Virus record (IMG/VR): IMGVR_UViG_3300042362_000136
Location: 1-43,505 of that record
DNA from: a virus
Direction: 5' to 3' (one strand)
Length of the DNA: 43,505 bases
Below, piece after piece: positions 292-43,505 of this stretch. The notes under the pieces were generated by a model. The model was not told where the DNA came from. It made no database searches and saw only the letters and a program-made list of their open reading frames with translations. Positions within the stretch are counted from its first letter, which is position 1; every line of letters begins with the position of its first letter. The position numbers were made by a program, and so were the translations under genes.

Positions 292-543
292 GTGCCATTG
301 CGCACCAGGTCTTACTGTTTACTTGAACACTAGGGGGGGGACGTCGAAATTCCGTGGGAAGCGCGAGCCTAGATGAACTTCAACACCCCGTATGTATTGA
401 TGGAAAAAAACGGTTTGGGCAATGGAGGGGGGGGGTGGTGTTGAAAATAATCGGGGGCGAAGTTTTGGAATCAGGATTCGCGTGTGTGTAAATTTGGAAA
501 AAATTGGGTTTGCACGAGCGTGCAAAGTTGACGAAGGTTAGTG
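292..543. other. Non-coding leader with G-tracts before the packaging operon
   Basis: About 250 bp with no credible gene on either strand. It holds a run of eight G (333-340), a run of nine G (427-435), A/T-rich stretches and, at its right end, one copy of the dispersed palindrome (510-525). A non-coding block immediately upstream of ParB-like and terminase genes is a common place for packaging (cos or pac) signals and for the operon promoter, but I could not identify a convincing promoter or a cos-like element here, so that role is inference. Confidence 0.55.
510..525. promoter_or_regulatory. Dispersed palindrome, copy 1
   Basis: TTGCACGAGCGTGCAA; with flanking T509 and A526 the arms are 8 bp around a 2-bp centre. 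It lies 18 bp upstream of the ParB-like start codon in the gap that leads the packaging genes. Confidence 0.85.
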
Positions 544-1050
544 ATGCAAGTCAGAAAACGAAGCCAACGTGCAAAAGAAGCGTCGATGAAGGTTGAAAAC
601 GTGCCGCTTGAAGACCTCATGCCGTATGCGAACAACCCGAGAAAGAACGACCATGCCGTTGATGACATGGTGAAGGTCATTGAAGCGGTTGGGTTTCGCG
701 TCCCGCTTCTGGTGAAGGGGAATGAGATTGTCGATGGGCATTTGCGTGCCAAAGCCGCGAAGAAGATGGGTTTGACCGAGGTTCCGGTGGTAAGATGCGA
801 CGACATGGATGACAAGAGTGTTCGCCTTCTCCGATTGATGGTCAACAAGGCTGCGGAATTTGCGGATTGGGATTTTGACTTGCTTGCCGGGGAATTTGAG
901 GACTTGGAGGATGCCGGGGTGGACTTCGGTGAGTATGATTTTGAGTGGTTTCCGAAGAAAAGGGCTGCGAGGAAGTCTGCTGCGCCGAGGGAGTTGCTGG
1001 AGGTGGAGGAATATAACGAGTGTCCGAGGTGTGGGCATACGTGGGGTTGA
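544..1050 (+). CDS. ParB-like (ParB/sulfiredoxin fold) nuclease-domain protein
   Basis: A 168-aa protein whose first ~100 residues match the ParB N-terminal fold common in phages beside terminase genes. It reads PLEDLMPYANNPRKND (residues 21-36), then a hydrophobic strand, then the GHLR motif at 65-68 followed by AKAAKKMG and a VPVV strand. The tail ends in a CPxCGH half zinc-knuckle (160-165). Such proteins are thought to bind or nick DNA; the role in packaging or replication is not settled. ATG 544 is preferred over GTG 541 because GAAGG at 533-537 gives a 6-bp spacing; ATG 586 is also possible. The small terminase follows after 29 bp, suggesting one operon. Confidence 0.8.
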   Translation: MQVRKRSQRAKEASMKVENVPLEDLMPYANNPRKNDHAVDDMVKVIEAVGFRVPLLVKGNEIVDGHLRAKAAKKMGLTEVPVVRCDDMDDKSVRLLRLMVNKAAEFADWDFDLLAGEFEDLEDAGVDFGEYDFEWFPKKRAARKSAAPRELLEVEEYNECPRCGHTWG

Positions 1051-1079
1051 TCTTTCCGATGGTTGGAGCACAGTCTTGT

Positions 1080-1640
1080 ATGGCAAAGCTACCCGTAGTA
1101 AAAGTTCGCTCCAGAGGGAGGAAGGAGTCCCCGAGTGTGGGGGAATTGCCTGTCAAGGTGAAGGAACGCATGGCCGAGCAGAAGGAGTTGATGCTCTTTC
1201 ACTTGTCGAGGTCGAATGGCAACGTCGTGTATGCGTGCAAGAAGGTTGGCGTGAGCCGCATGACGCATTACAGGTGGCTGGCTTCGGATGCGGTTTATGC
1301 GGAGTCGGTCAACGACATAGCCGAAGCGGTTGTGGACAACATGGAGGCGTTGTTCATACGAACGACGGTGGAGGAGAAGGACTTGCGGTCGATGCGATGG
1401 TTTTTGGAGAGGCGGGGCAAGGACAGGGGATACGGCAAGCCCACGGTCATGGCATTGGACGCTGATGGCAATCCGATTGGGTATGGCTCGGTGCAGAATA
1501 ATGTCCAAATCAATTTCAAGTCGGATGTTCCGGCGGATTCGTTGCGATTGGCGTTGTCCGATCTGCTGAAGCAGAATCCAATGCTGTTGGAGTCCTCGGA
1601 GAAGTCGGCAAACGTCATTGAGGTGGAGGAGGAGGAGTGA
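1080..1640 (+). CDS. Terminase small subunit (probable)
   Basis: A 186-aa protein with a helix-turn-helix at about residues 45-69 (NGNVVYACKKVGVSRMTHYRW), the layout expected of a DNA-recognising small terminase: N-terminal HTH, a central helical oligomerisation region and an acidic C-terminus (ends EVEEEE). It would bind the packaging site and hand DNA to the large subunit encoded 3 bp downstream. ATG 1080 starts a plausible N-terminus (MAKLPVVKV); in-frame ATGs at 1020 and 1059 exist, but 1020 lies inside the upstream gene. Assignment rests on the HTH plus position directly before the large terminase. Confidence 0.78.
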   Translation: MAKLPVVKVRSRGRKESPSVGELPVKVKERMAEQKELMLFHLSRSNGNVVYACKKVGVSRMTHYRWLASDAVYAESVNDIAEAVVDNMEALFIRTTVEEKDLRSMRWFLERRGKDRGYGKPTVMALDADGNPIGYGSVQNNVQINFKSDVPADSLRLALSDLLKQNPMLLESSEKSANVIEVEEEE

Positions 1641-1643
1641 GCC

Positions 1644-3293
1644 ATGGGTAGAAAGCCGAAAGTGGTGCTTCCGACGAAGCTGGTGAGCAAGAAAGCCCCG
1701 GACCCGATGGAGTCCGCTTCTCCCGTGGAGAGGGCGCAACACGCCATACGGACGGGTGCGGTGGCAGTTCCGCATGGAATGTCTGATTCGGAGTATGTCC
1801 TGCTGCTTTCAACGCTGGTGGAGTTGGCTAGGGAGAATTTCCTCGCCTACTACCACTTGTTCAACCCTCAGGGGCATTCGCAGTTTGTGCTTGGGGGTGT
1901 CCACAGATATTTGATTTCGTTGGTTCAGCAGATTGTGGGGAATGAATTGCCGCCGAACACGGCAGTGTCGATGCCTCCACAGCACGGGAAGAGTTCTATG
2001 CTGTCGGTGGAGGCTCCGTCGTGGGTGCTGGGGAGGTTTCCCTCTTATAATGTGGCGATCACGGGTTTCTCGCACACGTTGGTGACGAAGTTCTCCAAGG
2101 CGATACGCGCACGAATGGAAAGCCCGTTGTATCAGTTGGTGTTTCCCGGCATACATCCGGTGAGGGGCAGCAACAAGTCTGATGAGTGGGTGACGACGAA
2201 GGGTGGAGGGGTTGTGGCGAAGTCCTCCGGGTCGAAGCTGACGGGTAGGCGGGTTGATCTCCTCATCATGGATGACGTTCACGCGGGTCGTGCCGAGGCT
2301 GAGTCCGAGGTTTTGCGTGAGAAAGTGATCCAGTGGTATTTCGGGGATTGCTTCACGCGCCTTCACCCATCCGCGAAGCAGTTCATCATCGGAACACGAT
2401 GGCATCCAGACGATTTGATCGGAAAGCTCACCAGTGACGAGCACGTAAACCAGTTGATAGCGGAGGGTAGGCCGGATCAGCAGTTCAACTACATCAACAT
2501 TCCGGCAATCCTTGAGGAGGGGGAGACGGATGTGCTCAACAGGGGGGCGAATGAAGCGTTATTCCCAGAAGAACGTCCGCTTTCCTATCTCCAAGGCATC
2601 AAGGCGACGATTCCAGCCTATGAGTGGGACAGTCAGTATCGCGGAAAGCCGCGTTCTGTGAGCAGCAGCATAACGGACTTGTCCAATCTGAAGTATGTCA
2701 GAATGTCGGACGTTCCGTGGGACAATATAGATGAAATAGTGCGCGGTTGGGATACCGCGTTGAGCGAGGAGCAGACAGCTGACTACACGGCTGGTGCTCT
2801 TCTTGGCTATGACAGGAAGTCGAAGACGCTTTACGTCCTTAACATGGTGAGGAGGCGTCTCGCGTGGGCAAAGATGCGGTCCCTCATCACTCTTCAAGCA
2901 GAAGTCGATCTTCGCGGATACCCACAAGCAGGAACGATAGCTACGGAGAGTGGCGAGGAGCCTTCGATACGCGTGCTTCGCATGGGTATGGAAGGTGTCG
3001 GCGGGTTCAAGGGCGTGGTTGAGGATGTGCGTGATGCTCTCATAGGCAGGGTGAAGGTCGAGTTGAAGAACCCCCCGAAGCGTTCCGAGGGTGGTGGCTC
3101 AAAGTTGCTTCGCGCACAGTCTTGGCTTAACAAGGTTGAGGCTGGGCAGGTCGTTGTGGTTCAAGCAGAATGGACGAAGGATTTCATTGACGAGCTTGAC
3201 ACGTTCCCTGACGGAAAGCATGATGACCAGATGGATGCCGTGAGCGTTGCGTGGGAAATGCTTGAAAAGCGCGGCAAGTTGCTTTTGGCCTAA
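1644..3293 (+). CDS. Terminase large subunit
   Basis: A 549-aa packaging motor and nuclease. The ATPase half shows Walker A PPQHGKSS (111-118), Walker B LLIMDD (206-211) and a coupling-type motif IIGTRWHPDDL (248-258). The RNase-H-like nuclease half starts at VRGWDTA (366-372) and ends with the characteristic FPDGKHDDQMDAV segment (acidic residues at about 527-531). This layout matches the large-terminase family with the Mu gp28-type C-terminal nuclease. Length is normal. A strong GGAGGAGGAG Shine-Dalgarno sits 7-8 bp before the ATG, unlike many other genes here. It would dock on the portal (6017-7486) and translocate DNA into proheads. Confidence 0.97.
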   Translation: MGRKPKVVLPTKLVSKKAPDPMESASPVERAQHAIRTGAVAVPHGMSDSEYVLLLSTLVELARENFLAYYHLFNPQGHSQFVLGGVHRYLISLVQQIVGNELPPNTAVSMPPQHGKSSMLSVEAPSWVLGRFPSYNVAITGFSHTLVTKFSKAIRARMESPLYQLVFPGIHPVRGSNKSDEWVTTKGGGVVAKSSGSKLTGRRVDLLIMDDVHAGRAEAESEVLREKVIQWYFGDCFTRLHPSAKQFIIGTRWHPDDLIGKLTSDEHVNQLIAEGRPDQQFNYINIPAILEEGETDVLNRGANEALFPEERPLSYLQGIKATIPAYEWDSQYRGKPRSVSSSITDLSNLKYVRMSDVPWDNIDEIVRGWDTALSEEQTADYTAGALLGYDRKSKTLYVLNMVRRRLAWAKMRSLITLQAEVDLRGYPQAGTIATESGEEPSIRVLRMGMEGVGGFKGVVEDVRDALIGRVKVELKNPPKRSEGGGSKLLRAQSWLNKVEAGQVVVVQAEWTKDFIDELDTFPDGKHDDQMDAVSVAWEMLEKRGKLLLA

Positions 3294-3307
3294 CAAAACA
3301 ATAAAAC

Positions 3308-3580
3308 ATGAGTGCCGTGGACAATGAGTTGGACAATTTCGTGGAACAATTCACGGACGAGCCGCTTATCAAAATGGATGGATACGACGATTGTGTCGTC
3401 GGAGTTGTCGAGCAATACGGGAGACCTCCCATTTTGTGCTACGACAAGGACAAGGTGATAGCGAGGCTGGTTGAGCAGGGAATGGAGAATGATGAGGAAG
3501 CCTTGGAGTTCTGGGCATTCAACCAACTCGGTGCGTGGGTAGGAGAATATACGCCTTGCTTCGTAACGCTTAAAAGCTAA
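3308..3580 (+). CDS. Conserved small phage protein, function unknown
   Basis: A 90-aa acidic protein. The pattern MDGYDDCVVGVVEQYGRPP, then CYDKDKVIARLVEQGM, then EALEFWAFNQLGAWVGE-TPCF is one I recognise from many phage and plasmid small proteins of unknown function, with the invariant GAWVGEGTP-like ending. It has no enzymatic motif. It starts 14 bp after the large terminase stop and so is probably in the same transcript. The conserved ending argues that it is a real gene and not a random open frame. Confidence 0.75.
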   Translation: MSAVDNELDNFVEQFTDEPLIKMDGYDDCVVGVVEQYGRPPILCYDKDKVIARLVEQGMENDEEALEFWAFNQLGAWVGEYTPCFVTLKS

Positions 3581-3583
3581 TCT

Positions 3584-4183
3584 ATGCTCACTATGAGCAT
3601 GGCTAGCACGTTCTTCAAGTATCCGCCGCAAAACCCGGACGAGTTTGAGGCACTTTGCCAGCACGTTCGCGAGCTTCGTCCCAAAGCAATCATGGAGATC
3701 GGGTCGAGGCACGGTCGGTCCTTGATTCGTCTCGCGGAAGCATCGATGCCCTCGCTAGAACGTGTCATCATTGTTGACCTACCCGGATCGTTGTGGGGCA
3801 AGGACAACTCCGAGCAAGCTCTTCGCGATTGCGCCAAGCACCTGTCTGATCGAGGAATCGAGGTTGAGCTACACCTGATTGACTCGCATAGCCGCGAAGC
3901 CCACGCTCTTGCACAACGGGAGCGTGGCAATATCGACTTCCTCTTCATCGACGGAGACCATACCTACAGGGGAGTTTCCAATGACTATATCTGGTTCGGC
4001 CCGTGCGTTCGGTCAGGCGGGACGGTGGCGTTTCACGATGTCTGCGCCCCGGATGGCATCGGGTCAAAGGGTCATCTCGTGGAAGTTCCAAAGTTCTGGA
4101 ATGAAATCAAGACGACACAAGACACAACGCTCCATAGCAACGGGTCAGTGTATGGAATCGGGATCAAACTGATCAATTATTGA
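3584..4183 (+). CDS. Class I SAM-dependent methyltransferase (Methyltransf_24-like)
   Basis: A 199-aa Rossmann-type methyltransferase. Motif I is EIGSRHG (38-44), an acidic strand end VIIVDLPG (61-68) would hold the SAM ribose, and FIDGDHTY (121-128) with GGTVAFHD (145-152) match the small-molecule or sugar methyltransferase group that includes cephalosporin-hydroxylase-like proteins. The substrate is unknown; with a sulfotransferase and glycosyltransferases elsewhere in the genome a sugar is plausible (inference). In-frame ATGs at 3593 and 3599 are alternative starts; a TTGCTT-16-TAATCT promoter-like pair at 3556-3583 would favour them. It starts 3 bp after the previous gene. Confidence 0.8.
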   Translation: MLTMSMASTFFKYPPQNPDEFEALCQHVRELRPKAIMEIGSRHGRSLIRLAEASMPSLERVIIVDLPGSLWGKDNSEQALRDCAKHLSDRGIEVELHLIDSHSREAHALAQRERGNIDFLFIDGDHTYRGVSNDYIWFGPCVRSGGTVAFHDVCAPDGIGSKGHLVEVPKFWNEIKTTQDTTLHSNGSVYGIGIKLINY

Positions 4184-4189
4184 TATGGC

Positions 4190-5116: not shown

Positions 5117-5145
5117 TTGCCGTCAGGCATTATCTCCAGTATACT
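5117..5145 (+). promoter_or_regulatory. Promoter before the sulfotransferase-like gene
   Basis: TTGCCG (5117-5122), 17-bp spacer, TATACT (5140-5145). The ATG at 5152 is only 6 bp after the -10 box, so the transcript would be leaderless. Confidence 0.5.
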
Positions 5146-5151: not shown

Positions 5152-5988
5152 ATGAGAACCAATAAGGACCGCTCTGTTGTGCTCATCGAAAACCCGTTGA
5201 CCGGGAATGATGCATTCGCTTCTGCTCTCGGCCTTACTGAGAGCATCGGCGCGGAAAAGCACATTAGCCCCAATGAGGCTAGGAGCATTTACGGAAGGGA
5301 TGCTTGGAGTTCGGCTCAGAAGGTGATTCTGATCCGAGACCCGAGGGAGCGGTTTGAGAGTGCAATGATACTTGCTTTTTTGAACAAGGGTTCTGAGCAA
5401 TTCACGGACGAATTCAACCTCCACCTAATCGAAAACGAGAGCAAAAAGCCACAAGAAAGGGCGACTGAACTCATCGCTTTCGTGAGGGATAACATCGGCC
5501 TTGTGCCTCAGTTCTTTCTGCCTCAGACCCATTGGCTTACTGCCAAGTTCGACTTGATTCTGGCTAGTCGTGACATAGCTGAATACTTCAACAAGGTCAT
5601 CGGTAAGTGCTGCTTGAAAAAGAACTCACTGCGCTCAAACCCGCAGTATCGTTCGTTCCGGGGGAAATCGGACCTCTCTCTTGTAAAGGAGGTCTACGCC
5701 GAAGACTACGAACTCTTTTCCAGACTAAAGGTTTGGTCTCCTGACCCAATGTCGGTTCGTCTGGTAGAAGGCTACTGCAAGCGTTGCATGGCTAACGAGG
5801 GAAAGTTTTCGGAACTCATCAGTGGAGTCGAGCTTACGGACACCAACGAAGCTATCGAGGCAAGCAGCAATTCTGAAAATAGCGCAGAAGAACCTATATT
5901 GCACGTTCGTGCAAAGAGGAAACGCTCCAAGAAGTCCACTATTGACTCTGAGCTTACCGTGATTGACACAGATAGTGTGGAGGAGTAA
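5152..5988 (+). CDS. Sulfotransferase-like protein
   Basis: A 278-aa protein. VVLIENPLTGNDAFASAL (9-26) followed by KVILIRDPRERFESAMI (57-73) matches the 3'-phosphate-binding RDPRERF segment of PAPS-dependent sulfotransferases, and FFLPQTHWLTAKFDLILASRD (about 121-141) fits the later conserved part. The N-terminal PSB loop is not canonical, so activity is uncertain. The C-terminal ~60 residues are acidic then basic low complexity (RAKRKRSKKS). ATG 5152 is chosen because a promoter lies 6 bp upstream and the in-frame extension to 5065 overlaps the methylase. A palindrome copy (5899-5914) is embedded near its 3' end, upstream of the portal promoter. Confidence 0.6.
   Translation: MRTNKDRSVVLIENPLTGNDAFASALGLTESIGAEKHISPNEARSIYGRDAWSSAQKVILIRDPRERFESAMILAFLNKGSEQFTDEFNLHLIENESKKPQERATELIAFVRDNIGLVPQFFLPQTHWLTAKFDLILASRDIAEYFNKVIGKCCLKKNSLRSNPQYRSFRGKSDLSLVKEVYAEDYELFSRLKVWSPDPMSVRLVEGYCKRCMANEGKFSELISGVELTDTNEAIEASSNSENSAEEPILHVRAKRKRSKKSTIDSELTVIDTDSVEE
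5899..5914. promoter_or_regulatory. Dispersed palindrome, copy 2 (inside a gene)
   Basis: TTGCACGTTCGTGCAA, the only full copy lying well inside a coding sequence (it encodes LHVRAK in the sulfotransferase-like gene). It is 48 bp upstream of the -35 box of the portal promoter. Confidence 0.8.
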
Positions 5989-5991
5989 ACT
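5963..5991 (+). promoter_or_regulatory. Strong promoter for the portal/head genes
   Basis: TTGACA (5963-5968, consensus), 17-bp spacer, TAAACT (5986-5991). Predicted start near 5998, giving a leader of roughly 19 nt before ATG 6017. It overlaps the end of the preceding gene. Confidence 0.65.
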
Positions 5992-8427: not shown

Positions 8428-8443
8428 TTGCACGAGTGTGCAA
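8428..8443. promoter_or_regulatory. Dispersed palindrome, copy 3
   Basis: TTGCACGAGTGTGCAA (TTTGCAC...GTGCAAA with flanks). It lies 3 bp after a stop codon and 7 bp upstream of the -35 box of the prohead-protease promoter, centred about 50 bp before the predicted transcription start. Confidence 0.85.
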
Positions 8444-8450: not shown

Positions 8451-8478
8451 TTGCGTGAGTTTTCACGAATGGTAGAAT
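8451..8478 (+). promoter_or_regulatory. Promoter for the prohead protease gene
   Basis: TTGCGT (8451-8456), 16-bp spacer, TAGAAT (8473-8478), then 6 bp to ATG 8485, predicting a leaderless mRNA. The weak -35 lies just downstream of a palindrome copy. Confidence 0.5.
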
Positions 8479-11741: not shown

Positions 11742-12614
11742 ATGGCAAACACCGAACGTCCTGTTGAAGTTATCCTCTGCGACCAGTATTATCCCCAATC
11801 TACAGAACTACGAGATTGGCGTATGTCACTGTGGGAGGAAGGCATACGAAATTACGGGGACACAGCTATCCGCGTATCAGCAAACCCATACCAATACGGA
11901 GACGTATGTATAACATGGGGTCCAAGGACACCAGATGTAGCACATCTGCACGCCGCTCACCATCTAGTGATGGAATGCGGATTCTTGGGTGATCGACTCA
12001 ACAACTTCTACGTTGGGTTCTCCGGGTTGAACGGAATGGGGAAACCTGCTGGCCCAATATTGGAAGGAGCCGGGGAGGAGTGGTATTCAGAACTCAAACC
12101 GTTGCCGCGAAGACGCGAACACAAGAACGTGGTCATTTTGGGGCAGGTGGCCAAGGATGCCAATCTGCTCCCCTTACACCACTCAGACGATGAAAGACCG
12201 TTGGTGTATGCAGAATATTTGAGAAAGCTCGCTTACTTTCTTGAGCGTAGGGGGTGTGCTGTTGGATTTCGAGGGCATCCAATGGATTCAGCTTGGACTA
12301 ATATGGTAGCACCTGATGTCTTCCTCTTTGACAAGGAGGGCTGGAGTAAGGAGAAGATTTTCGAGTGGGCTGACTTGGCAGTTTCATTCTCATCAAACTC
12401 TTTGGTGGAAGCATTCATGCACGGAGTGGATGTCATGCCAGCACACCCCGGAAGTATGTGCTGGAGTGTGAGGAGCACGGTGGATCGGCAAGCCTATTTT
12501 CACGAGCATGAGCGGAGGGCATGGCTTGATTACGTTGCGTCTTCGCAGTTTTCCGCAGAGTCGATTAAGTCTGGGTTGGCGTGGAGTCGCATACGCCCGT
12601 CTTTTGCACGCTAG
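11742..12614 (+). CDS. Glycosyltransferase-like (GT-B / capsule-export-like) protein
   Basis: A 290-aa protein. The second half has a GT-B-like layout: a strand HKNVVILGQVAKDANL opening the donor-side Rossmann fold, CAVGFRGHPMDSAW, and DLAVSFSSNSLVEAFMHGVDVMPAHPGS, which parallels the sugar-nucleotide-binding region of capsule polysaccharide and related transferases. No metal-binding DxD is needed for this fold. It stands alone between capsid and connector genes, with its own promoter, so it may modify a virion protein or interfere with host surface sugars (inference). Its stop codon lies inside palindrome copy 4. The family call is by pattern only. Confidence 0.55.
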   Translation: MANTERPVEVILCDQYYPQSTELRDWRMSLWEEGIRNYGDTAIRVSANPYQYGDVCITWGPRTPDVAHLHAAHHLVMECGFLGDRLNNFYVGFSGLNGMGKPAGPILEGAGEEWYSELKPLPRRREHKNVVILGQVAKDANLLPLHHSDDERPLVYAEYLRKLAYFLERRGCAVGFRGHPMDSAWTNMVAPDVFLFDKEGWSKEKIFEWADLAVSFSSNSLVEAFMHGVDVMPAHPGSMCWSVRSTVDRQAYFHEHERRAWLDYVASSQFSAESIKSGLAWSRIRPSFAR

Positions 12615-12619
12615 TGCAA
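12604..12619. promoter_or_regulatory. Dispersed palindrome, copy 4
   Basis: TTGCACGCTAGTGCAA. It contains the TAG stop of the upstream gene and ends 7 bp before the -35 box at 12627, the same geometry as copy 3. Confidence 0.82.
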
Positions 12620-12626: not shown

Positions 12627-12655
12627 TTGCGGGAACGCAGGACTCCTGTTATCCT
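12627..12655 (+). promoter_or_regulatory. Promoter for the connector-region genes
   Basis: TTGCGG (12627-12632), 17-bp spacer, TATCCT (12650-12655); predicted start near 12662, short leader to ATG 12679 without a Shine-Dalgarno. Confidence 0.45.
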
Positions 12656-15834: not shown

Positions 15835-15850
15835 TTGCACGCAAGTGCAA
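15835..15850. promoter_or_regulatory. Dispersed palindrome, copy 5
   Basis: TTGCACGCAAGTGCAA followed by a run of A. It lies in the 167-bp gap 15729-15895, 45 bp before ATG 15896. A TTGTCT hexamer 8 bp downstream mimics the -35 geometry of copies 3, 4 and 9, but no convincing -10 follows. The rest of the gap shows no gene. Confidence 0.8.
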
Positions 15851-19594: not shown

Positions 19595-20397
19595 TGCCAT
19601 CAATAATTGTAGGTAATCAAAGTCCGTATCTTAGCGGTTTGTCCTCTGGAAGCCGTGATGCTGTAACTGGCGAGGTAACGGTATCATACACGTATATAGT
19701 TCCTCAAGAGTCTGATGTTCTTACTGTTGGTCAAAGTAGTCTTGGTAATCTTCGTGAAGTTAGCCGTTCATGGAATCAGATTGAAGGATGCCTAGGCTAT
19801 GAAGTAACGATTAAGTATGAGGGCAAGCCTGAGACTGACGTTCAGCAGTTTGAGCTAGACGTATCTTTTTCTGAAGAACCGTTGCCGTCTCATCCTAACT
19901 GGAAGAAAATCAAAAAAGATTATAAGGGAACAGTTACCGACGAGGAGGTCTCATTCGATGAATTCATCACACCACCAAAGGGTTATACGGGTGTTACCAC
20001 CGACGACGGGAAGATCAAGAATCCTATGTATGGGATGAAAACTTGGCTCGCTCTAAAAGCCGTTGTTAGGCATACGTTTGAGTCAACGCAGCGTCCTAGC
20101 CTAAGCATGATTGGGCGCATCACTAAAAGAGCACCGGGGGGTTACGAGACGCCGGATAACCACGACTGGCTGGTTATGCCGCCAAAATGTCGTAAGAAGT
20201 ATGGTGGCGTGAACCCAGAACAGGAGCTTTTTGAAATTACGGTTGAGTATTTGCTCTCACCGCTTGGTGGATGGCCGAAGGGTGTCTACGAGATTATGGA
20301 AGGCAAGTTCTCTCCCGAAGAGCAGAGTGAGCGTGAGTTCAACGCGCCCAGACTAGGCGATAAGCCGTTTATGCCAGCTACAGGATGGAACCTATAA
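19594..20397 (+). CDS. Hypothetical tail protein (distal tail region)
   Basis: A 267-aa protein. The N-terminal half is predicted beta (GSRDAVTGEVTVSYTYIVPQESDVLTVG...NQIEGCLGYEVTIKYEG) and the C-terminal part begins LKAVVRHTFESTQRPS. It follows the tape measure with a one-base overlap (TAATG), the position of distal tail or tail-tip proteins, but I cannot assign a family. Palindrome copy 6 overlaps its stop codon. Confidence 0.6.
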   Translation: MPSIIVGNQSPYLSGLSSGSRDAVTGEVTVSYTYIVPQESDVLTVGQSSLGNLREVSRSWNQIEGCLGYEVTIKYEGKPETDVQQFELDVSFSEEPLPSHPNWKKIKKDYKGTVTDEEVSFDEFITPPKGYTGVTTDDGKIKNPMYGMKTWLALKAVVRHTFESTQRPSLSMIGRITKRAPGGYETPDNHDWLVMPPKCRKKYGGVNPEQELFEITVEYLLSPLGGWPKGVYEIMEGKFSPEEQSEREFNAPRLGDKPFMPATGWNL

Positions 20398-20411
20398 TGC
20401 ACATCGTGCAA
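20397..20411. promoter_or_regulatory. Dispersed palindrome, variant copy 6
   Basis: ATGCACATCGTGCAA: arms TGCAC/GTGCA with a 3-bp instead of 4-bp centre. It overlaps the stop codon of the preceding gene and a perfect TATAAT (20393-20398), and lies 8 bp before ATG 20419. No good -35 is visible for that TATAAT. Confidence 0.55.
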
Positions 20412-25220: not shown

Positions 25221-25236
25221 TTGCACGTTCGTGCAA
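25221..25236. promoter_or_regulatory. Dispersed palindrome, copy 7
   Basis: TTGCACGTTCGTGCAA, starting immediately after the TAA stop of the preceding gene and ending 15 bp before ATG 25252. No convincing promoter lies between it and the gene. Confidence 0.85.
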
Positions 25237-30009: not shown

Positions 30010-30025
30010 TTGCACGAACGTGCAA
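30010..30025. promoter_or_regulatory. Dispersed palindrome, copy 8
   Basis: TTGCACGAACGTGCAA, fully symmetric including the centre. It occupies the 17-bp gap between a TAA stop and ATG 30027, exactly where a ribosome-binding site would be expected. Confidence 0.87.
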
Positions 30026-35246: not shown

Positions 35247-35588
35247 ATGCAAACTGTTCCAAAACCAATGGAGCCAATCAACCCGCTTTCTGCTGACTTG
35301 AAAATCGCTAGCTATCTCGCTGGAGCGGCCATGCTTGGGTTGCTTAGTGCGCTGGCATCAGTCCTTGGCAACGAATCGAAAGCCCTCACTGTTCGAGTGA
35401 TTTGTGCCTATCTTCTTGCTGGTGCGTTGGTGTCTGCCGGAATTACCTTCCTTCTGGTCCAACACTATGGGTTCTCCTACTTTCTTCTCGGCGTTGCCAT
35501 TTTCGCTGGATACAAAGCATTCGATACTCTCGCGTTGATCGGTATCGCCATCAGCAACCTAGTCAAACGCTTCCTCGCGAAGAAATGA
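35247..35588 (+). CDS. Holin (LydA-like, three transmembrane segments)
   Basis: A 113-aa protein with about three transmembrane helices (near 22-40, 48-66 and 70-100), a short soluble N-terminus and a Lys/Arg end (VKRFLAKK). SAGITFLLVQHYGFSYFLLGVAIFAGYKAFDTL resembles the P1 LydA-type holin family (GxxxGxxxFxxL helix). It would permeabilise the inner membrane at the set time. ATG 35247 follows the amidase stop by 5 bp; the next gene overlaps its stop (ATGA), forming a coupled lysis unit. Confidence 0.85.
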   Translation: MQTVPKPMEPINPLSADLKIASYLAGAAMLGLLSALASVLGNESKALTVRVICAYLLAGALVSAGITFLLVQHYGFSYFLLGVAIFAGYKAFDTLALIGIAISNLVKRFLAKK

Positions 35589-36175
35589 AAACGCTGCGCC
35601 AACGAATCTCCGGGTATCTTCACACCATCTTGATTGTTTTAGGTGGTTTGAGCATTCCAATTTACCTTGCGGAGCGTTGCAGCTACAGTAATGAGCGAGA
35701 GAAGTTTTCCCTCTCACTTCATGCAGCGGACGCTGGCAGGTGGTATTGGAATCTTGAAACCAACGAACTTTTTTGGGACGATCAGATGTTCATCCTGTTT
35801 GGTCGTATCAAAGAACACTGGACTCCAAACTACGGAGGGTTTGAAGCCGCGATCTACCCGGAGGATAGGGATCGAGTAACTGCTCGCGTTCTCAAAGCAA
35901 TTGATGAGCGTGGAGGGTATCAAGACATTTTCAGAATCGTCACTGCCTCTGGTGAAGTTCGTGAAATTCGTGCCGCCGCGATGGTGAGCAAGGACGGTAA
36001 ACACATGACGGGTATCAATCTGCCAGCCATCCATCGCAACGGTAACTTCAAGACAGGGCTGAAGCCTAGGAGTGTGGAAGCACCACCGAACTCTGGCCCG
36101 TCTCCAGTCATGCCGGATTTCGATGAGGCTACCGACTTAGACCGTGTTGCTGGCCGTGTTGGCACGGGGGGCTGA
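35585..36175 (+). CDS. Membrane-anchored PAS-domain protein
   Basis: A 196-aa protein. Residues 11-29 form one hydrophobic segment (YLHTILIVLGGLSIPIYLA); residues ~41-145 read as a PAS fold of the PAS_3 class: DAGRWYWNLETNELFWDDQMFILFG, then AAIYPEDRDRVTARVLKAIDERGGYQDIFRIVTASGEVREIRAAA and MTGIN. The C-terminal ~50 residues are Pro-rich and disordered. There is no kinase, cyclase or HTH domain. It overlaps the holin gene by 4 bp, so it is a lysis-cassette member where spanins normally lie; one N-terminal TM with a soluble domain would be compatible with sensing or lysis control. No lipobox was seen. Confidence 0.78.
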   Translation: MKTLRQRISGYLHTILIVLGGLSIPIYLAERCSYSNEREKFSLSLHAADAGRWYWNLETNELFWDDQMFILFGRIKEHWTPNYGGFEAAIYPEDRDRVTARVLKAIDERGGYQDIFRIVTASGEVREIRAAAMVSKDGKHMTGINLPAIHRNGNFKTGLKPRSVEAPPNSGPSPVMPDFDEATDLDRVAGRVGTGG

Positions 36176-36184: not shown

Positions 36185-36212
36185 TTGCAAAGAAAAACGG
36201 CTAAGGTAGAGT
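36185..36212 (+). promoter_or_regulatory. Right-arm promoter A (CTTGCAAAGAAAA type)
   Basis: TTGCAA (36185-36190) in the extended element CTTGCAAAGAAAA, 16-bp spacer, TAGAGT (36207-36212), 8 bp to ATG 36221. The same extended element is at 36548 and 38966. Confidence 0.55.
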
Positions 36213-36523: not shown

Positions 36524-36524
36524 T

Positions 36525-36540
36525 TTGCACGAAAGTGCAA
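36525..36540. promoter_or_regulatory. Dispersed palindrome, copy 9
   Basis: TTGCACGAAAGTGCAA (TTT/AAA flanks complete an 18-bp frame). One base after a stop codon and 8 bp upstream of the -35 box at 36549. Confidence 0.85.
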
Positions 36541-36548: not shown

Positions 36549-36576
36549 TTGCAAAGAAAAAAAGACACTTTAGAGT
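36549..36576 (+). promoter_or_regulatory. Right-arm promoter B (CTTGCAAAGAAAA type)
   Basis: TTGCAA (36549-36554) in CTTGCAAAGAAAA, 16-bp spacer, TAGAGT (36571-36576); predicted start near 36583, leader of about 26 nt to ATG 36609. Confidence 0.55.
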
Positions 36577-36608: not shown

Positions 36609-38270
36609 ATGAACACTAGCGATCAATACAAGAAGGAACTCGGCATTCTGAGCAAGTCAGGATGCGGAGTCATGTTCACCCGGACGCGGGAACCCTACCG
36701 CGCAATGGAAGCGGTCAAAGAAATGGCTTTCTCGGAAGCCGTTCCTTTCGGGCAGTGGGATGCCGTCAATGGGTGGCGCGTCTATCGTCCGTCTGACGCA
36801 CCGGGAACCAAGCCGCACAATCAGAAGACGCTTGATCCGCTCGCCGCGATGAAGTGGTTGATGAACGTGGACGGTGGATGGGAACCGGAGGGTTGGCAAG
36901 CCCCCGGATACTTCGTCATGCACGCTATCCATCCGTGGCTGGAGAAAGCCCCGGCGATGGTCGAGCTTCTTCGCCAATACGTTCGTGTGTTCCCGACCAT
37001 GAGCAAGAAAATGCGGATGGTTGTTGTGGTCCCAGAACACGTTAGTCTTCCAGACGAGATTCAGCACGACATCCCCACGGTGGACTTCGACCTCCCCTCA
37101 ATCGAGGAGATGAGTTCACTCTTCCACTACATCGTGGAAAGCTCAGTGCCGGAAGGTCAAGTCGTCCCCGAAATCTACACTAAGGGTGAGCGCGAAACCA
37201 TCGCGGCTGCGGCTGGCGGGTTGACGCAGATGGAGGCAGAACTCGCCTTCTCCCGAGCAATCATTGAGAATAAGAACCCGGAGGATTCCGTAGATGAGAT
37301 TCCTTTCGAGAAGTTCAACGGAACCGTCCTTGATGCCAAGACCGAAGTGGTCAAGCAGTCTGAGGTTCTGGAACTCATGGAACCCGTTGACATGAGTGAA
37401 GTCGGTGGGCTGGATGCACTGAAGGAGTGGATCAATAACGCTGCCGTCGCGTTCACTGAAGAGGCTCGTAATTTCGGTGTGGATGCTCCTGCTGGAATCG
37501 CGGCAGTTGGTCCTCCGGGGACCGGAAAGACTCTCATTGGAAAAGCTATCGCAACTACCCTCGGTCAACCTTTGGTCAAGTTCGATGTGTCCAAGTGCTT
37601 CGGTTCGCTGGTAGGTCAGTCGGAAAGCCGCGTTCGTTCTGCCTTGAAGCAACTGGAAGCGATGGGGCGAGTCACCGTCCTCTTCGATGAAATCGACAAG
37701 TCCCTCGGTGGTTCCCATCAAAGTGGCGGCGACTCCGGTGTTTCCCGCCGCGTCCTCGGAGCCATCCTGACATTCATGCAGGAAACCAAGGCTCCGATCT
37801 TCCCGATCTATACCGCCAACCGAACCGACTCGCTTCCACCGGAACTGCTCCGCAAGGGTCGTCTCGATGAGGTGTTCGCAGTGATGCCGCCGAACAGGGA
37901 GGAACGCGAAGCCATCCTTCGCATCCACCTCAAGAAGCGCAAGCAGAACGTCCGAAAGATCAAAGACCTTGACGTTGCTGTTCGCGCCTCTCGCGGATAC
38001 GTCTCCGCTGAGTTGGAGGCTGCGGTTAAGGAAGCAGTGAAGGTCGCGTTCGTCCGCAAGGAGGACGTTAGCGGCAAGCTCATCGCAGAGATGCTTGGTG
38101 AGATGCGTCCGCTTGCGGAAGCGTTCCCAGAAGATTTCGCCCGTATGAGTGAGTGGGCTAAGAACAACGCCCGTCTCGCCTCTACTCCCTCGGAGGAGGA
38201 CGAAGCTAATGAGGACGCTCCCTCACTTGCGGAAGTCCCTGCCCCCCGTCGTCGCCGCATCGGTCAATAA
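36609..38270 (+). CDS. AAA+ ATPase (Ycf46/FtsH-class)
   Basis: A 553-aa ATPase. The N-terminal ~260 residues (ILSKSGCGVMFTRTREPYRAMEAVKEMA...) parallel the non-ATPase half of Ycf46-type proteins. The AAA+ module has Walker A GPPGTGKT (301-308), Walker B VLFDEID (357-363), sensor-1-like TANR (402-405) and the PPELLRKGRLDE arginine-finger region (410-421). The C-terminus is an Arg/Pro-rich tail (PAPRRRRIGQ). It would act as a hexameric remodelling motor; the substrate is unknown. With the DUF1257 and DUF2997 genes downstream it forms a conserved grouping I associate with Ycf46-like ATPases in cyanobacteria and some phages. Confidence 0.85.
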   Translation: MNTSDQYKKELGILSKSGCGVMFTRTREPYRAMEAVKEMAFSEAVPFGQWDAVNGWRVYRPSDAPGTKPHNQKTLDPLAAMKWLMNVDGGWEPEGWQAPGYFVMHAIHPWLEKAPAMVELLRQYVRVFPTMSKKMRMVVVVPEHVSLPDEIQHDIPTVDFDLPSIEEMSSLFHYIVESSVPEGQVVPEIYTKGERETIAAAAGGLTQMEAELAFSRAIIENKNPEDSVDEIPFEKFNGTVLDAKTEVVKQSEVLELMEPVDMSEVGGLDALKEWINNAAVAFTEEARNFGVDAPAGIAAVGPPGTGKTLIGKAIATTLGQPLVKFDVSKCFGSLVGQSESRVRSALKQLEAMGRVTVLFDEIDKSLGGSHQSGGDSGVSRRVLGAILTFMQETKAPIFPIYTANRTDSLPPELLRKGRLDEVFAVMPPNREEREAILRIHLKKRKQNVRKIKDLDVAVRASRGYVSAELEAAVKEAVKVAFVRKEDVSGKLIAEMLGEMRPLAEAFPEDFARMSEWAKNNARLASTPSEEDEANEDAPSLAEVPAPRRRRIGQ

Positions 38271-38936: not shown

Positions 38937-38952
38937 TTGCACGAACGTGCAA
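38937..38952. promoter_or_regulatory. Dispersed palindrome, copy 10
   Basis: TTGCACGAACGTGCAA, identical to copy 8, placed directly after a TAA stop and 14 bp before the -35 box at 38967. Confidence 0.87.
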
Positions 38953-38966
38953 ATCAAAAAAACTAC

Positions 38967-38995
38967 TTGCAAAGAAAACGGGTTTAGTTTATACT
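38967..38995 (+). promoter_or_regulatory. Right-arm promoter C (CTTGCAAAGAAAA type)
   Basis: TTGCAA (38967-38972) in CTTGCAAAGAAAA, 17-bp spacer, TATACT (38990-38995), 15 bp to ATG 39011. Confidence 0.58.
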
Positions 38996-39010
38996 TCAAT
39001 ACAATCCACT

Positions 39011-39607
39011 ATGTCACACACAACGTCTATCAAAAGCACGCCGATCAAGAGCATCACTGCTCTTCAGACGGCAATCACAATCCTGCAATCGCAGGGCATC
39101 AACATCACTCTTGAGCGCAACGCAGTCCCACGTATGTATTACGCGGACCAGATTGCAAAGCACGTTAAGTCCAAGCAGGACACGGCTCAACGTGCTGGCC
39201 AGCCGCATGAGGGTCTGAGGTTTCACGAGAACCCGGAGGAGTGCGATTATGTCATCAAGGTGGCAGACGCCTACTATGACATCGGACTCATCTACAATCA
39301 GCACGGCGAACTGGTTCCCTTCTTCGATGACTACCAGTATCCCAGCATCGCAGAGTCGATGGCGAAGGGGTTCTCTACTGAGGAGAAGCCGATTCGCAAG
39401 TTCCTTGGAGCGCAGTTCGCTGGGGCAGTGGAGCATTGGTCTGGTGAGCGTGAGGCAGGTGAGCAGCAACTCCACTCTGTTGGAAAACTGATGCAGCAGT
39501 ATTCCATTGCTGCGGCGTGTGAACAGGCTGCGGCTGAAGGCTACATCATTTCGAGCAGTAGCTTGGACGAGCATGGGAACATCCACCTTACTATCGACAT
39601 CAACTGA
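39011..39607 (+). CDS. DUF1257 / Ycf35-like protein
   Basis: A 198-aa protein. The start MSHTTSIKSTPIKSITALQTAITILQSQGI matches the MSHF-x-IKT-type opening of DUF1257 (Ycf35). Further on, YYDIGLIYNQHGELVPFFDDYQYP and LMQQYSIAAACEQAAAEGYIISSSSLDEHGNIHLTI match its GYDIGF...YELVxD and QRYAY...GFxV...DGxIxL segments. The biochemical function of DUF1257 is not known to me. Transcribed from right-arm promoter C. It is followed after 2 bp by a DUF2997-like gene, the usual companion. Confidence 0.78.
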   Translation: MSHTTSIKSTPIKSITALQTAITILQSQGINITLERNAVPRMYYADQIAKHVKSKQDTAQRAGQPHEGLRFHENPEECDYVIKVADAYYDIGLIYNQHGELVPFFDDYQYPSIAESMAKGFSTEEKPIRKFLGAQFAGAVEHWSGEREAGEQQLHSVGKLMQQYSIAAACEQAAAEGYIISSSSLDEHGNIHLTIDIN

Positions 39608-39609
39608 GT

Positions 39610-39816: not shown

Positions 39817-40190
39817 TGCCCACTCAAGTCATCACGGTTCGACCGGACGGGTCCATTTTCGGACTGCAACACAAACGAGGGCAAGGGATTGACCTTCGCA
39901 AGTTTGGGCACGCCGAAGTCAAACGTGCCACCATCATTGAGTGGGACCAGCATAATCAGGAGTGGTTCATTCGCTGGGTGAGCGAAGACGCTCTTCTGCA
40001 TGGGTTGTCGTGGGATTACGACACGTTCAAGAACGCGCAGGTCAACTACGAGGACTTTCAAGGTCAGGCCGTCGCGGAGTTATCAGACGACGAGGGAGAC
40101 TTCGTGGTCTACTTCCAAGACTACGAAGATGCGGTTGCCGCAGAAGTCGCAGTGATCCAAGCGATGCAAGTTGCTGGAGAGATCGGCTGA
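39816..40190 (+). CDS. Conserved hypothetical protein
   Basis: A 124-aa acidic protein. It has short VITVRPDGSI and IDLRKFGHAEVKRATIIEWDQHNQEWFIRWV segments, with a helix EDAVAAEVAVIQAM at the end. The arrangement (RR/KRAxxIEWD...W...A-EVxxI) is one I have seen in small phage proteins of unknown function. ATG 39816 overlaps the previous stop. The true start is not upstream, since that reading frame extends through the DUF2997 gene. Confidence 0.65.
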   Translation: MPTQVITVRPDGSIFGLQHKRGQGIDLRKFGHAEVKRATIIEWDQHNQEWFIRWVSEDALLHGLSWDYDTFKNAQVNYEDFQGQAVAELSDDEGDFVVYFQDYEDAVAAEVAVIQAMQVAGEIG

Positions 40191-40198
40191 AAAACAGA

Positions 40199-40236
40199 CC
40201 CCCCGGCTCCGAGCGATCAAAAACGGAACCGGGGGG
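40199..40236. terminator. GC-rich hairpin; possible (bidirectional) terminator
   Basis: CCCCCCGG (40199-40206) pairs with CCGGGGGG (40229-40236), and TCCG (40208-40211) with CGGA (40224-40227), separated by one mismatch; the loop is 12 nt. No T run follows on the + strand; on the - strand a TCTGTTTTTC tract comes straight after it. Could end leftward transcripts or act as an mRNA-stabilising stem. Confidence 0.5.
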
Positions 40237-40259
40237 CAAATCCACAAACACAAGAAAAT

Positions 40260-40275
40260 ATGCACGAGCGTGCAA
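40260..40275. promoter_or_regulatory. Dispersed palindrome, copy 11
   Basis: ATGCACGAGCGTGCAA: the first T of the consensus is A. It contains the ATG of the longest reading of the replication gene, so that start codon could be occluded by a bound protein. Confidence 0.75.
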
Positions 40276-41462
40276 ATTGTGCAACTAAAATTAGCGATTG
40301 GCAGTTCATACATGAGGTTCAACGAAAGATGCTCAGAGAATGGTTTCGATACCTCACTGCCTTGCAACGCCTCGCCCTACTATTCATCTTCGACCGAACA
40401 CTCGGCTGGGGAAAGGAGTGGGAGCGTATCACGATGGACCACTGTTCTCAGGGCATCGTGGGGTCTGACGGTGTGTTCTATGCAGCACCGTTTACCTCTT
40501 GTCGCAAGCGTGCCGCCGAAGTCGTTCACTCGCTTGTTGAACTCGGGCTTGTTCGTGTTGAGTCACGTAAACATGACAGAGCAAAGCGATACGCATTGAA
40601 CTTTGATTGGACCCCCAAGCCTATGCAACTACCAAAACGACTCAAGCAAGGGGGCGAAAACGCCCCGCTCATGGGGGCGAAAACGCCCCCCTTCTTAGGG
40701 GCGAAAACGCCCCGATTAAGAGAAGAGAATAAAGAGGGTAAACCAAAGGAAGAGACTACGGACGCAAGCGTCCGTGGTCGCAAGGGTATCGAAGAGATTG
40801 TATTGAACGTCAAGGTCCGTTCTAGGAAGCGTGCCGCGTTGCGGCAAGCCGACGGTCGTCCGCTTCGACAAGACAAGTCCGGCTTCCTCCCCTCCCGTTC
40901 CGCCCTCATCATTACATGGCGAGAACTGTGGCTCCGCTTTTTCCCTGACATTCCGCTGGAGCCTTTGCCGAAGACCAGTGTGTCCATCCTTCACACCTAT
41001 TGGAAGAACTGGGTGCAAGCTCGAAACGAGGGTGAGTTTTACGACTACCTTGAATGGTTGTTCGATAACTGGAATGCCTTGCGAGTTGGAACCTTCTCAT
41101 GGATGACCGGATACCCAAAAGCCCCTGCACTTCGCATGATCGTGAGCAGCAAGCTCCGCGCCTACTACGAGGAGGCATACCGAGAGAAGCAAGCCATCGC
41201 AGTCTGGCGCAAGCTGGAGCCACATGAACGTCGTATTCGTGAGTTGGTCGAGAACGGCATGGACCCGGAGAAGGCGCAACAGATGGTTGAGCGAGAGTTC
41301 GCCACCAAGAAGGAACTTGCTGAGTTGTCGAAGGCTAGACAACGATTGAGCGTGATGATGGAGACGTTCAACCGTCGTGAGGACGCGAGCAACGCAATCA
41401 CTCCGAGAAAGCGCACCCCGTTGCCCTCAAAAACCAACTTCAAAAAATGGGAGGACAAGTGA
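40260..41462 (+). CDS. Replication initiator (lambda O-like, winged-helix)
   Basis: A 400-aa protein. Residues ~25-115 form a winged-helix region of the phage replication-protein type (REWFRYLTALQRLALLFIFDRTLGWGKEWERITMDHC...FTSCRKRAAEVVHSLVELGLVRVESRKHD). Residues 131-152 are the translation of DNA iterons. The C-terminal part is basic and helical, with DPEKAQQMVEREFATKKELAELSKARQRL. It would bind its own gene's iterons and recruit the helicase encoded 0.7 kb downstream. The exact start is uncertain: ATG 40260 sits in a palindrome and no Shine-Dalgarno is seen; the next in-frame ATG is 40329. Confidence 0.75.
   Translation: MHERANCATKISDWQFIHEVQRKMLREWFRYLTALQRLALLFIFDRTLGWGKEWERITMDHCSQGIVGSDGVFYAAPFTSCRKRAAEVVHSLVELGLVRVESRKHDRAKRYALNFDWTPKPMQLPKRLKQGGENAPLMGAKTPPFLGAKTPRLREENKEGKPKEETTDASVRGRKGIEEIVLNVKVRSRKRAALRQADGRPLRQDKSGFLPSRSALIITWRELWLRFFPDIPLEPLPKTSVSILHTYWKNWVQARNEGEFYDYLEWLFDNWNALRVGTFSWMTGYPKAPALRMIVSSKLRAYYEEAYREKQAIAVWRKLEPHERRIRELVENGMDPEKAQQMVEREFATKKELAELSKARQRLSVMMETFNRREDASNAITPRKRTPLPSKTNFKKWEDK
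40651..40713. other. Putative origin of replication: three palindromic iterons
   Basis: Three copies of GGGGCGAAAACGCCCC start at 40651, 40674 and 40698 (23-24 bp period, about two helical turns); the middle one extends to a perfect 18-bp inverted repeat. They lie inside the initiator gene between its DNA-binding and C-terminal parts and are followed by a purine- and A/T-rich stretch (40714-40755). This is the arrangement of the lambda origin inside gene O. Confidence 0.78.
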
Positions 41463-41463
41463 T

Positions 41464-41601
41464 ATGAAACTCAATGATAAATCAGATGACCAACTGATTG
41501 TGGCTGCTGGATGCGGATGCTTCATTCTGATCCTGCTAATCAGCGTTCTTGTATCAGTAGTGTCCATTGCAATCAAGCTGGCAATCTGGGCTACGGAATA
41601 A
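41464..41601 (+). CDS. Small single-pass membrane protein (45 aa)
   Basis: A 45-aa protein: charged start MKLNDKSDDQLI, one long hydrophobic helix (about 12-40, with a GCGC pair) and an end IWATE. ATG 41464 is 1 bp past the initiator stop. No Shine-Dalgarno is evident other than GGAGG at 41450-41454. It is too small to classify; possibly a membrane-linked replication or host-takeover factor. Confidence 0.6.
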   Translation: MKLNDKSDDQLIVAAGCGCFILILLISVLVSVVSIAIKLAIWATE

Positions 41602-41605
41602 CACC

Positions 41606-42145
41606 ATGGAAATTCAAGACAAGGAACTGAAGAAGATGCTCGGCCTAGCCGGGATTCCGAAAAGCTATCAGCGGGAAGATGCGTCACTCAGCAAGTGCGG
41701 AAAGTTTGGTGAAGCTGTTCTCGACTGGCTTTCTTCTGGAGGCTACGCAGAGCTACGAAAAGGTAGTTCCGTCATCGAGATCGTTTCTGACAAGCCCGAA
41801 GCTACAGATGCTTTCTATTGCATGGCGAGAGCAGCCATCCTGCATGGTATTCCTGTTCAAGCCTACCATGTGCTCGATATGCTTAACGAGTCACAACTCA
41901 ACGAGGAGGTATGGGAGGACACCAACGGTGTTCATGCGTTGTTCATAGAAGGATTCTCTGGTGAGCGCAATGACCAGACTACATCAGCGCAGGACGGCAT
42001 CTTGGAATGGTTCCTTTCCCGATGGCTGATGGATGGCAAGTCCATCGTGTTTTTGCACGACGTTCAAATTGCTCAGGGATCACTCACTAAGCGGTTCAAA
42101 AAGCGAATCGCCCTTCACCACAAAGTCACGCTGACCAATCTCTAA
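41606..42145 (+). CDS. Possible helicase-loader-like protein, degenerate
   Basis: A 179-aa protein placed directly before the DnaB-type helicase, the usual position of a DnaC-like loader. VHALFIEGFSGE (about 109-120) looks like a Walker-B-type strand and GKSIVFLHDVQIAQGSLTKRFKKRIALHHKVTL (143-175) resembles the C-terminal end of an AAA+ core, but no Walker A is visible. It may be a degenerate AAA+ adaptor or an unrelated protein; the assignment is mainly positional. Start ATG 41606 is 4 bp after the previous stop. Confidence 0.45.
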   Translation: MEIQDKELKKMLGLAGIPKSYQREDASLSKCGKFGEAVLDWLSSGGYAELRKGSSVIEIVSDKPEATDAFYCMARAAILHGIPVQAYHVLDMLNESQLNEEVWEDTNGVHALFIEGFSGERNDQTTSAQDGILEWFLSRWLMDGKSIVFLHDVQIAQGSLTKRFKKRIALHHKVTLTNL

Positions 42146-42148
42146 CCT

Positions 42149-43426
42149 ATGTCTACCGGATTCAGTTTTCTACACGCTACGATAGGTAGCAACGATTGGC
42201 GTCTTCTTCGTCGCGCAAAAGATGAGATGTTCACTGAGGAGGAACTCCCAGCCTTTGCGTTCATCCGAGATTACTTTGAGCGTTACAAGGAGATGCCGAC
42301 GATTGATGTCGTCGCACAAGAAGGGTTTCAGCTTCCTCGCCCACGCCGCAGTGCTTCATCGGAGTATTGGCTCGACACGTTGAAGCGGAGGTTTGCTTAT
42401 ACGCGGGTGGACGAAAAGCACCCGCGTCTTGTGCAAGCCATGAGCAGTCAGAATACTGACGAGATGCTTGCTGTTCTTCGCGAGATGGTGGCAGAGGCTT
42501 CGTTGGTGGTAGGCTCAGAACGCTACACCACGCTTCGCGATGAAGTATCTGCCGTGCGTGACGACTATCTGTGGGCTAGGTCTAATCCCGGTCTTCGCGG
42601 AATCCCATCCGGCTGGCCTACGCTTGACCTCGCTACTATGGGGTTCATGGGCGGCGATGTCATCGTGCTGGCTGGTCGTCCCTCAATGGGTAAAAGCTAC
42701 CTGCTGCTGGAGATGGTCAACTCTGCCTATCTCGATGGCAACCCTGCTGCGCTGGTCTCAATGGAGATGACCACCACGCAGATGGTCCGCAGATGGGTTG
42801 GCAGACGGTCAGGGTTCAATCCGAACTTGATCCGCGATGGTGGGCTGACCACCTATTCCCACGAGCATCTTCTCTCCGTGATTGATGATATGGAGAACAA
42901 TGAAACGCCAATCTATATGCTCGCCGGGGACATGAGAAAAAGCGTGTCAGGGATCGAGGCAATGGTAATGGAGTTCTCGCCAAAGATTCTCTTCGTTGAC
43001 GCAGCCTACCTGTTGACTCCATCTGGTCGTAGGCAGGGGCACATCAGTAAATGGGAGTCTATCAGCGAAGTCATCTGCGAGTTAAAGCAACTAGCCATTC
43101 GCTACGACATCCCTGTCGTCATCAGCGTCCAGTTTAATCGAAACCAGAAGAGCAAGGGTAAGAAGGAACTAGACCTCGGGGACATCGCAGGAAGCGATAG
43201 CATTCCGCAAGACGCCAGCGTTGTATTGGGTATCCGTCAGGGTCCAGCCCCCTATCAGCGATCACAACGAATCGTTGAGGTGATGAAGAACCGGGAGGGT
43301 GACACGCCAAGATTCGCCACTGCCTTTTCATTCAGCCCTGTCAGCATGATTGAGGTTCCCTTAGTTGAGGAAGGTGATGACGATGACGGTGAGTCAACTG
43401 TAGTGAACACAGGTTGGATGATTTGA
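42149..43426 (+). CDS. Replicative DNA helicase (DnaB-type)
   Basis: A 425-aa protein. Residues 1-120 are an N-terminal helical domain. The RecA-like core begins near 150 with GIPSGWPTLD; it has Walker A GRPSMGKS (176-183), SMEMTTTQM (about 204-212), a Walker B-like KILFVDAAYLL (279-289) and a later SVQFNRNQKS region equivalent to the family's SQLNR motif. An acidic tail ends the protein. It should unwind DNA ahead of the fork as a hexamer, loaded by the upstream proteins. The palindrome copy 12 overlaps its stop codon. Confidence 0.93.
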   Translation: MSTGFSFLHATIGSNDWRLLRRAKDEMFTEEELPAFAFIRDYFERYKEMPTIDVVAQEGFQLPRPRRSASSEYWLDTLKRRFAYTRVDEKHPRLVQAMSSQNTDEMLAVLREMVAEASLVVGSERYTTLRDEVSAVRDDYLWARSNPGLRGIPSGWPTLDLATMGFMGGDVIVLAGRPSMGKSYLLLEMVNSAYLDGNPAALVSMEMTTTQMVRRWVGRRSGFNPNLIRDGGLTTYSHEHLLSVIDDMENNETPIYMLAGDMRKSVSGIEAMVMEFSPKILFVDAAYLLTPSGRRQGHISKWESISEVICELKQLAIRYDIPVVISVQFNRNQKSKGKKELDLGDIAGSDSIPQDASVVLGIRQGPAPYQRSQRIVEVMKNREGDTPRFATAFSFSPVSMIEVPLVEEGDDDDGESTVVNTGWMI

Positions 43427-43438
43427 ACGAGCGTGCAA
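43423..43438. promoter_or_regulatory. Dispersed palindrome, variant copy 12
   Basis: TTGAACGAGCGTGCAA, one mismatch in the left arm. It covers the helicase stop codon and ends directly before ATG 43439, like copy 8. Confidence 0.7.
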
Positions 43439-43505
43439 ATGAAGAAGCAGAACAGTCAGAATTTGAACATACAGGTTGGTCGAAACGCCACCATCCTTGT
43501 CGTGA
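43439..43505 (+). CDS. Start of another gene, cut by the window end
   Basis: 22 codons are visible from ATG 43439 (MKKQNSQNLNIQVGRNATILVV), open to the last base. It begins directly at the edge of palindrome copy 12, with no Shine-Dalgarno. Product unknown; the position after the helicase suggests a replication or recombination gene. Confidence 0.45.
   Translation, partial: MKKQNSQNLNIQVGRNATILVV

Follow-up and report, generated by a model that had tools for sequence, protein, structure and literature searches.

The Noc sites of Bacillus are dispersed palindromes. The Cluster O mycobacteriophages (Corndog) carry more than 30 dispersed 17-bp palindromes with invariant arms, a variable centre and no consistent orientation (PMC4351075), and the stoperators of Cluster A phages (L5) are numerous repressor sites dispersed intergenically. 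Plasmid RK2 has about a dozen palindromes on its replicon for KorB, a global regulator of transcription whose DNA-binding domain is of the ParB type; KorB slides away from its operators to silence promoters as far as 1.5 kb off (PMC11790492). The present analysis concerns a family of palindromes in a viral DNA stretch of 43,505 nucleotides (nt) (IMG/VR record IMGVR_UViG_3300042362_000136, positions 1 to 43,505), here called the window. The Cluster O hallmark of many copies, constant arms and a varying centre was shared by the window palindromes, which very probably serve as DNA binding sites for a factor that the phage encodes.

Palindromes of the window

The exact palindrome TGCACNNNNGTGCA (TGCAC-N4-GTGCA) occurred 10 times in the window, while 100 shuffled sequences gave a mean of 0.05 and a maximum of 1. 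Adding the 3-base-spacer site of 20397 and the site with one mismatch at 43423 brought the total to 12, a mean density of about one site per 4 kb, and the orientation of the centres was mixed in the window and its relatives. The repeats listed by the original prediction were real and its coordinates correct, and neither of the refuting outcomes that it had named was seen: counts were far above the shuffles and the sites were retained in close relatives. Its variant at 20397 was present, but the 3-base-spacer class had been missed, and the single mismatch that it gave to each of the last two sites was found at 43423 (TGAAC arm) but not at 40260, where the core was exact.

By our own gene list, 9 of the 12 sites were at least half intergenic, where chance placement expects 0.4 of 12 because gaps make up only 3.4% of the window; the 11 of 12 claimed earlier was a slight overstatement. 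Eight sites touched a stop codon or lay within 3 bp of one, as had been predicted.

Site A (510..525, TTGCACGAGCGTGCAA) lay 15 nt 5' of a ParB-like gene and had an ortholog at position 76 of the relative G2. Site B (5899..5914, TTGCACGTTCGTGCAA) was intragenic, near the 3' end of its gene, with orthologs in G2 (one mismatch), G4 and G5. Site C (8428..8443, TTGCACGAGTGTGCAA) lay 3 bp past a stop codon and site D (12604..12619, TTGCACGCTAGTGCAA) held a TAG stop; the genes that follow C and D had orthologs with an upstream site in the window, G2, G4, G058 and G032 (also labelled M32). Site E (15835..15850, TTGCACGCAAGTGCAA) had orthologs in G2 and G4, and site O (20397..20411, ATGCACATCGTGCAA), which reads ATGCAC-ATC-GTGCAA with the 3-base spacer, corresponded to TTGCACGCCGTGCAA at G2 21308. 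Site F (25221..25236) abutted a TAA with the next ATG 15 nt on, and site G (30010..30025) had a TAA on one side and an ATG on the other. Site H (36525..36540) was 5' of the AAA ATPase promoter, and site I (38937..38952) abutted a TAA and was also 5' of a promoter. Site J (40260..40275, ATGCACGAGCGTGCAA) overlapped a start codon, its first three letters being the ATG of the gene that follows. Site K (43423..43438, TTGAACGAGCGTGCAA) contained the dnaB stop and adjoined the next ATG; its arm change supplies that gene's TGA stop and was repeated at G2 45848. A weak candidate for a thirteenth site (42053..42067, TTGCACGACGTTCAA) lay within the 3' portion of a gene and was identical at G2 44477.

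Conservation and change of the sites

The same palindromes were found at matching gene junctions in contigs G001-G005. Across 13 orthologous site pairs, the arms were identical at 155 of 156 positions (99%), the centres at 69% and the ungapped flanks at 54%. In the window group, the arms were TTGCAC/GTGCAA (outermost base A or T) with a spacer of 4 in 30 cases and of 3 in seven, and no other spacer between 0 and 12 was found. The spacer of 4 at sites H and I was replaced by 3 in G2. A pattern scan of viral contigs yielded G032, a 74-kb relative (capsid 58% and AAA protein 53% identical) with nine exact sites, 8 of 9 with spacer 3. In its companion G016, sites were preceded by a terminator-like hairpin and followed by a TTGCAA promoter, an arrangement that argues for a DNA rather than an RNA role.

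The 88-kb contig G058 was syntenic with G2 at a protein identity of about 28-57%. It contained no TGCA-N6-TGCA but 19 copies of TTGACC-N3-GGTCAA, with spacer 3 throughout, including positions upstream of the site-C gene, the site-D gene and the gene of an unannotated protein, phrog_17202. This pattern reads as the trace that would be expected of a trans-acting factor with altered specificity. Separately, L112, a phage with phrog_17202, had three TGACAT-N2-ATGTCA in 20 kb, perhaps another site specificity.

The AAA and DnaB proteins of the window group led to cultured siphophages. Cultured phages of Rhizobium, Agrobacterium, Rhodobacter, Aeromonas, Pseudomonas, Stenotrophomonas and Vibrio contained 6-24 TGCA-N6-TGCA per ~40-50 kb. 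The dispersed palindromes were TGCAAC-N2 in L338C (23), TGCAAT-N2 in RcTiptonus (15), DLP_5 (14) and RcZahn (4), TGCAA-N4 in SM1 (14), TTGCAA-N4 in JP1 (16) and GTTCGG-N3 in Firecracker (29), with 8 in HJ05; Markov nulls gave at most 3 for six-base arms. Enrichment of TGCA-Nk-TGCA was confined to k=6, except in G032 (k=5) and G2 (k=5 and k=6), with per-genome Poisson P of ~1e-6 to 1e-27 in members, and was absent (flat profile) in YuA and T1. A site network of this kind, its letters differing from phage to phage, turns up in many phages that are only distantly related.

Candidate binding protein

The factor that binds the sites is rather probably phrog_17202, a candidate named from sequence comparison. 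Its gene in G2 is at 58145-59179, and it is probably missing from the window only through the early end of the contig. The protein was present in 11 of 11 Gram-negative-type phages scanned. The phage's own palindrome stood upstream of 12 of the 19 gene copies, that is, all 12 from many-site phages (G2, G058, G032, L338C, HJ05, JP1, RcZahn, RcTiptonus, SM1, DLP_5, L111 and L115), and no other gene had an upstream palindrome so consistently across divergent phages. The putative recognition helix had ADY in common in G2 and G032, which have TTGCAC sites, and AHS in G058, which has TTGACC sites. For two AlphaFold models, the best credible PDB match was the DNA-binding domain of Noc with its NBS site (Foldseek probabilities 0.87 and 0.54; E 1.1 and 3.1).

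Another phage protein is an unlikely binder; examples are the HTH_17/phrog_19880 regulator encoded close to recA, the product of the replication initiator-like gene J, and some protein outside the compared contigs. The product of G2 53485-54042 matched 'transcriptional regulator' (phrog_19880, 1.6e-6) and had an HTH_17-like sequence, and similar palindromes occur in Cluster O, where phrog_17202 was not detected in the stretch searched. However, JP1 and the stretch of DLP_5 searched yielded no member of the HTH family, and the palindrome was absent upstream of the HTH gene in all three phages with a blast match; the matches of RcZahn and TM16 were excluded, their alignment rows being other small proteins.

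Promoters, spacing and proposed function

Sigma70-like promoter elements were found downstream of 35 of 190 sites versus 3 of 190 in the opposite direction, and in L338C 10 of 12 such sites lay 7-9 nt before the -35 element. Promoter-like elements on the + strand of the window were TTGACA-N17-TAAACT (5963..5991) 48 nt past site B, TTGCGT-N16-TAGAAT (8451..8478) just past site C, its TTGCG kept in G2 and G4, TTGCGG-N17-TATCCT (12627..12655) past site D, TTGCAA-N16-TAGAGT (36549..36576) past site H, and TTGCAA-N17-TATACT (38967..38995) past site I. Some of the remaining sites were directly 5' of ribosome-binding sites or start codons.

A classical activator at a fixed distance was rejected because in the window group the sites stood 6 to 48 nt from the -35 element, although 7-9 nt was the commonest distance in L338C. 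A promoter-like block repeated at 36185, 36549 and 38967 began with TTGCAAAGAAA and had the -10 element TAGAGT or TATACT; similar -35 blocks (TTGCAAAGG, TTGACAAAGG) were present in G058 and L338C. A GC-rich hairpin (CCCCCCGGCTCCG...CGGAACCGGGGGG) at about 40200-40245, immediately 5' of site J, was also present in G2.

We propose that a dimeric regulator encoded by the phage lineage, probably phrog_17202, would occupy the palindromes, mostly at gene junctions near promoters or start codons, and would regulate its own gene through the palindrome 5' of it. Bound regulator would silence the phage transcription units in the manner of KorB and insulate them from one another, the genome meanwhile persisting as a lysogen that is extrachromosomal or unstable. 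An extra role in genome organisation is possible, and spreading from the sites may occur. Taken whole, this explanation of a dimeric phage regulator with KorB-like global control is an even call. Silencing as the main role is put somewhat more tentatively; it is the leading mechanism because the literature describes certain members as lysogens that are unstable or stay outside the chromosome. DLP5 was obtained as a phagemid and DLP3 makes lysogens (PMC7326821). VHS1 makes unstable lysogens, and R21Y makes lysogens or pseudo-lysogens for which passaging was not possible (PMC10671443); both VHS1 and R21Y have the phrog_17202 gene.

Several points weigh against the proposed regulator. No palindrome was found upstream of phrog_17202 in TM16 and SIO-2, or in L112, L113, L114, L116 and L117 (few local sites), and the majority of sites were without a clear promoter. 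The protein was chosen after a search for conserved proteins among related, non-independent phages. Its fold matches are weak, with E above 1, and no Pfam match to ParB, HTH_ParB or PF17762 was found; because of the weak fold scores and unmatched ParB profiles it is not placed in the ParB/KorB family, although it may act like KorB or Noc. A mixed spacer of 3 or 4 is unusual for a rigid dimer, and simple repression does not predict even spacing. The RcF phages showed no sign of lysogeny and appear to be virulent (PMC8601537).

The same phage protein could instead be mainly architectural, using evenly placed loading points to coat, compact, partition or protect the genome as Noc and ParB do, with secondary effects on promoters; this is unlikely, though it is the chief competitor of silencing as the main role. 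The coefficient of variation of the gaps between sites was 0.37 in the window (P 0.003), 0.38 in G2, 0.47 in G058, 0.39 in RcZahn and 0.47 in DLP_5, compared with about 0.85-0.94 for random gene junctions, and the combined P for even spacing was ~1e-11 over 13 genomes, not all of them independent. This evenness and the many sites without a promoter agree with an architectural role, but HJ05, TM16 and Firecracker were unevenly spaced, one site per similar-sized operon could alone give evenness, and the promoter-like elements were one-directional, with the cluster of distances in L338C. A combination, in which a widespread siphophage lineage would carry, across the whole genome, an evenly spaced array of palindromes that load a novel Noc/ParB-like silencer and organiser of a plasmid-like genome state, the array being rewritten alongside the recognition helix, is doubtful.

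Host regulators, RNA structures and other readings

The LexA box of Fibrobacter succinogenes is TGCNC-N4-GTGCA, and the likeness of architecture had led the original prediction to suggest a host regulator such as LexA, with the phage within the SOS regulon. This is very improbable. The same architecture, with shifting letters, occurred across phages of several Alpha- and Gammaproteobacteria, the arms changed from TTGCAC to TTGACC in the syntenic G058, which may have another host, and the sites were spread through structural genes. A capsid search of genome contigs for the host gave no relative. NtrC-type boxes are TGCAC-N7-GTGCA, a spacing that does not match the window palindromes.

Hairpins at mRNA ends, another of the roles suggested earlier, are also most unlikely. 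The spacers of 3 and 4 are hairpin-loop sizes, the sites adjoin stop codons and those of the window fold at -6 to -7 kcal/mol. However, none of the variants showed a compensating change in the opposite arm, some sites had a terminator-like hairpin on one side and a promoter downstream, and TGCAATTAATTGCA folded at only -2.5 kcal/mol. Module boundaries used in recombination were disfavoured because the positions are conserved and associated with promoters. Intrinsic terminators were rejected on finding A runs, not T runs, 3' of the sites, and N4-type hairpin promoters on finding no giant virion polymerase among the open reading frames seen.

Other features of the window and its relatives

The recognisable window genes (terminase, portal, capsid, tape measure, AAA ATPase and DnaB) were all on the + strand. 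Downstream of site A was a ParB N-domain-like protein of 168 amino acids (544..1050, +; phrog_620, 4e-36). The AAA+ ATPase (36609..38270, +) was common to other palindrome-bearing phages, and the DnaB-type helicase (42149..43426, +) was followed by a remaining replication module that lies beyond the window end and was seen in G2. A DUF1257-like protein (39011-39607; E 0.00096, below the Pfam cut-off) was encoded near the ATPase, and the pair presumably resembles the plastid Ycf46/Ycf35 pair. The phage protein encoded at 35585-36175 contained a PAS_3 domain (3.4e-10) and had no match in the cultured phages. In G2 (IMGVR_UViG_3300032227_000277, reverse-complement), the DNA polymerase gene at 45864-49703 had an apparent intein-like insertion from near CLHADVLIDTYEG to near FHHN. 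The 30-kb contig G023 (L095-L096, IMGVR_UViG_3300015371_000131) contained 12 identical TTGCACGCGCGTGCAA, several of them intragenic, and blast showed no resemblance between this contig and the window group.

Comparison with known systems

No report of such networks outside Cluster O came up when texts were searched for several palindrome sequences; literature coverage was partial and novelty is unproven. Operators or stoperators of a phage repressor had been among the roles first suggested, and binding of a phage regulator to the DNA is the reading with the best fit, but Cluster A stoperators are asymmetric and aligned with transcription (PMC4351075), whereas the window sites are palindromic and of mixed orientation. 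Among credible fold matches of the phrog_17202 core, Noc of Bacillus came first, at a weak score, but there was no sequence-level match and its site letters are different. The KorB operator OB holds TTTAGCGGCTAAA, and KorB has a CTPase domain, which was not detected in phrog_17202.

Cluster O shares the AAA ATPase at about 30% identity, but its palindrome TGTTCGG-N3-CCGAACA is not the sequence of the window sites, many of its repeats are intragenic, their spacing is uneven in Firecracker, its replication genes are different and no phrog_17202 was found in the stretch searched. The present system occurs in cultured phages of laboratory hosts, with a named candidate and natural specificity-switched pairs available, and it may help to explain the persistence of integrase-less large siphophages as phagemids or unstable lysogens. 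Cluster O is the published precedent for the palindromes, and what was an unexplained oddity, there as well as here, becomes a testable regulator-operator system.

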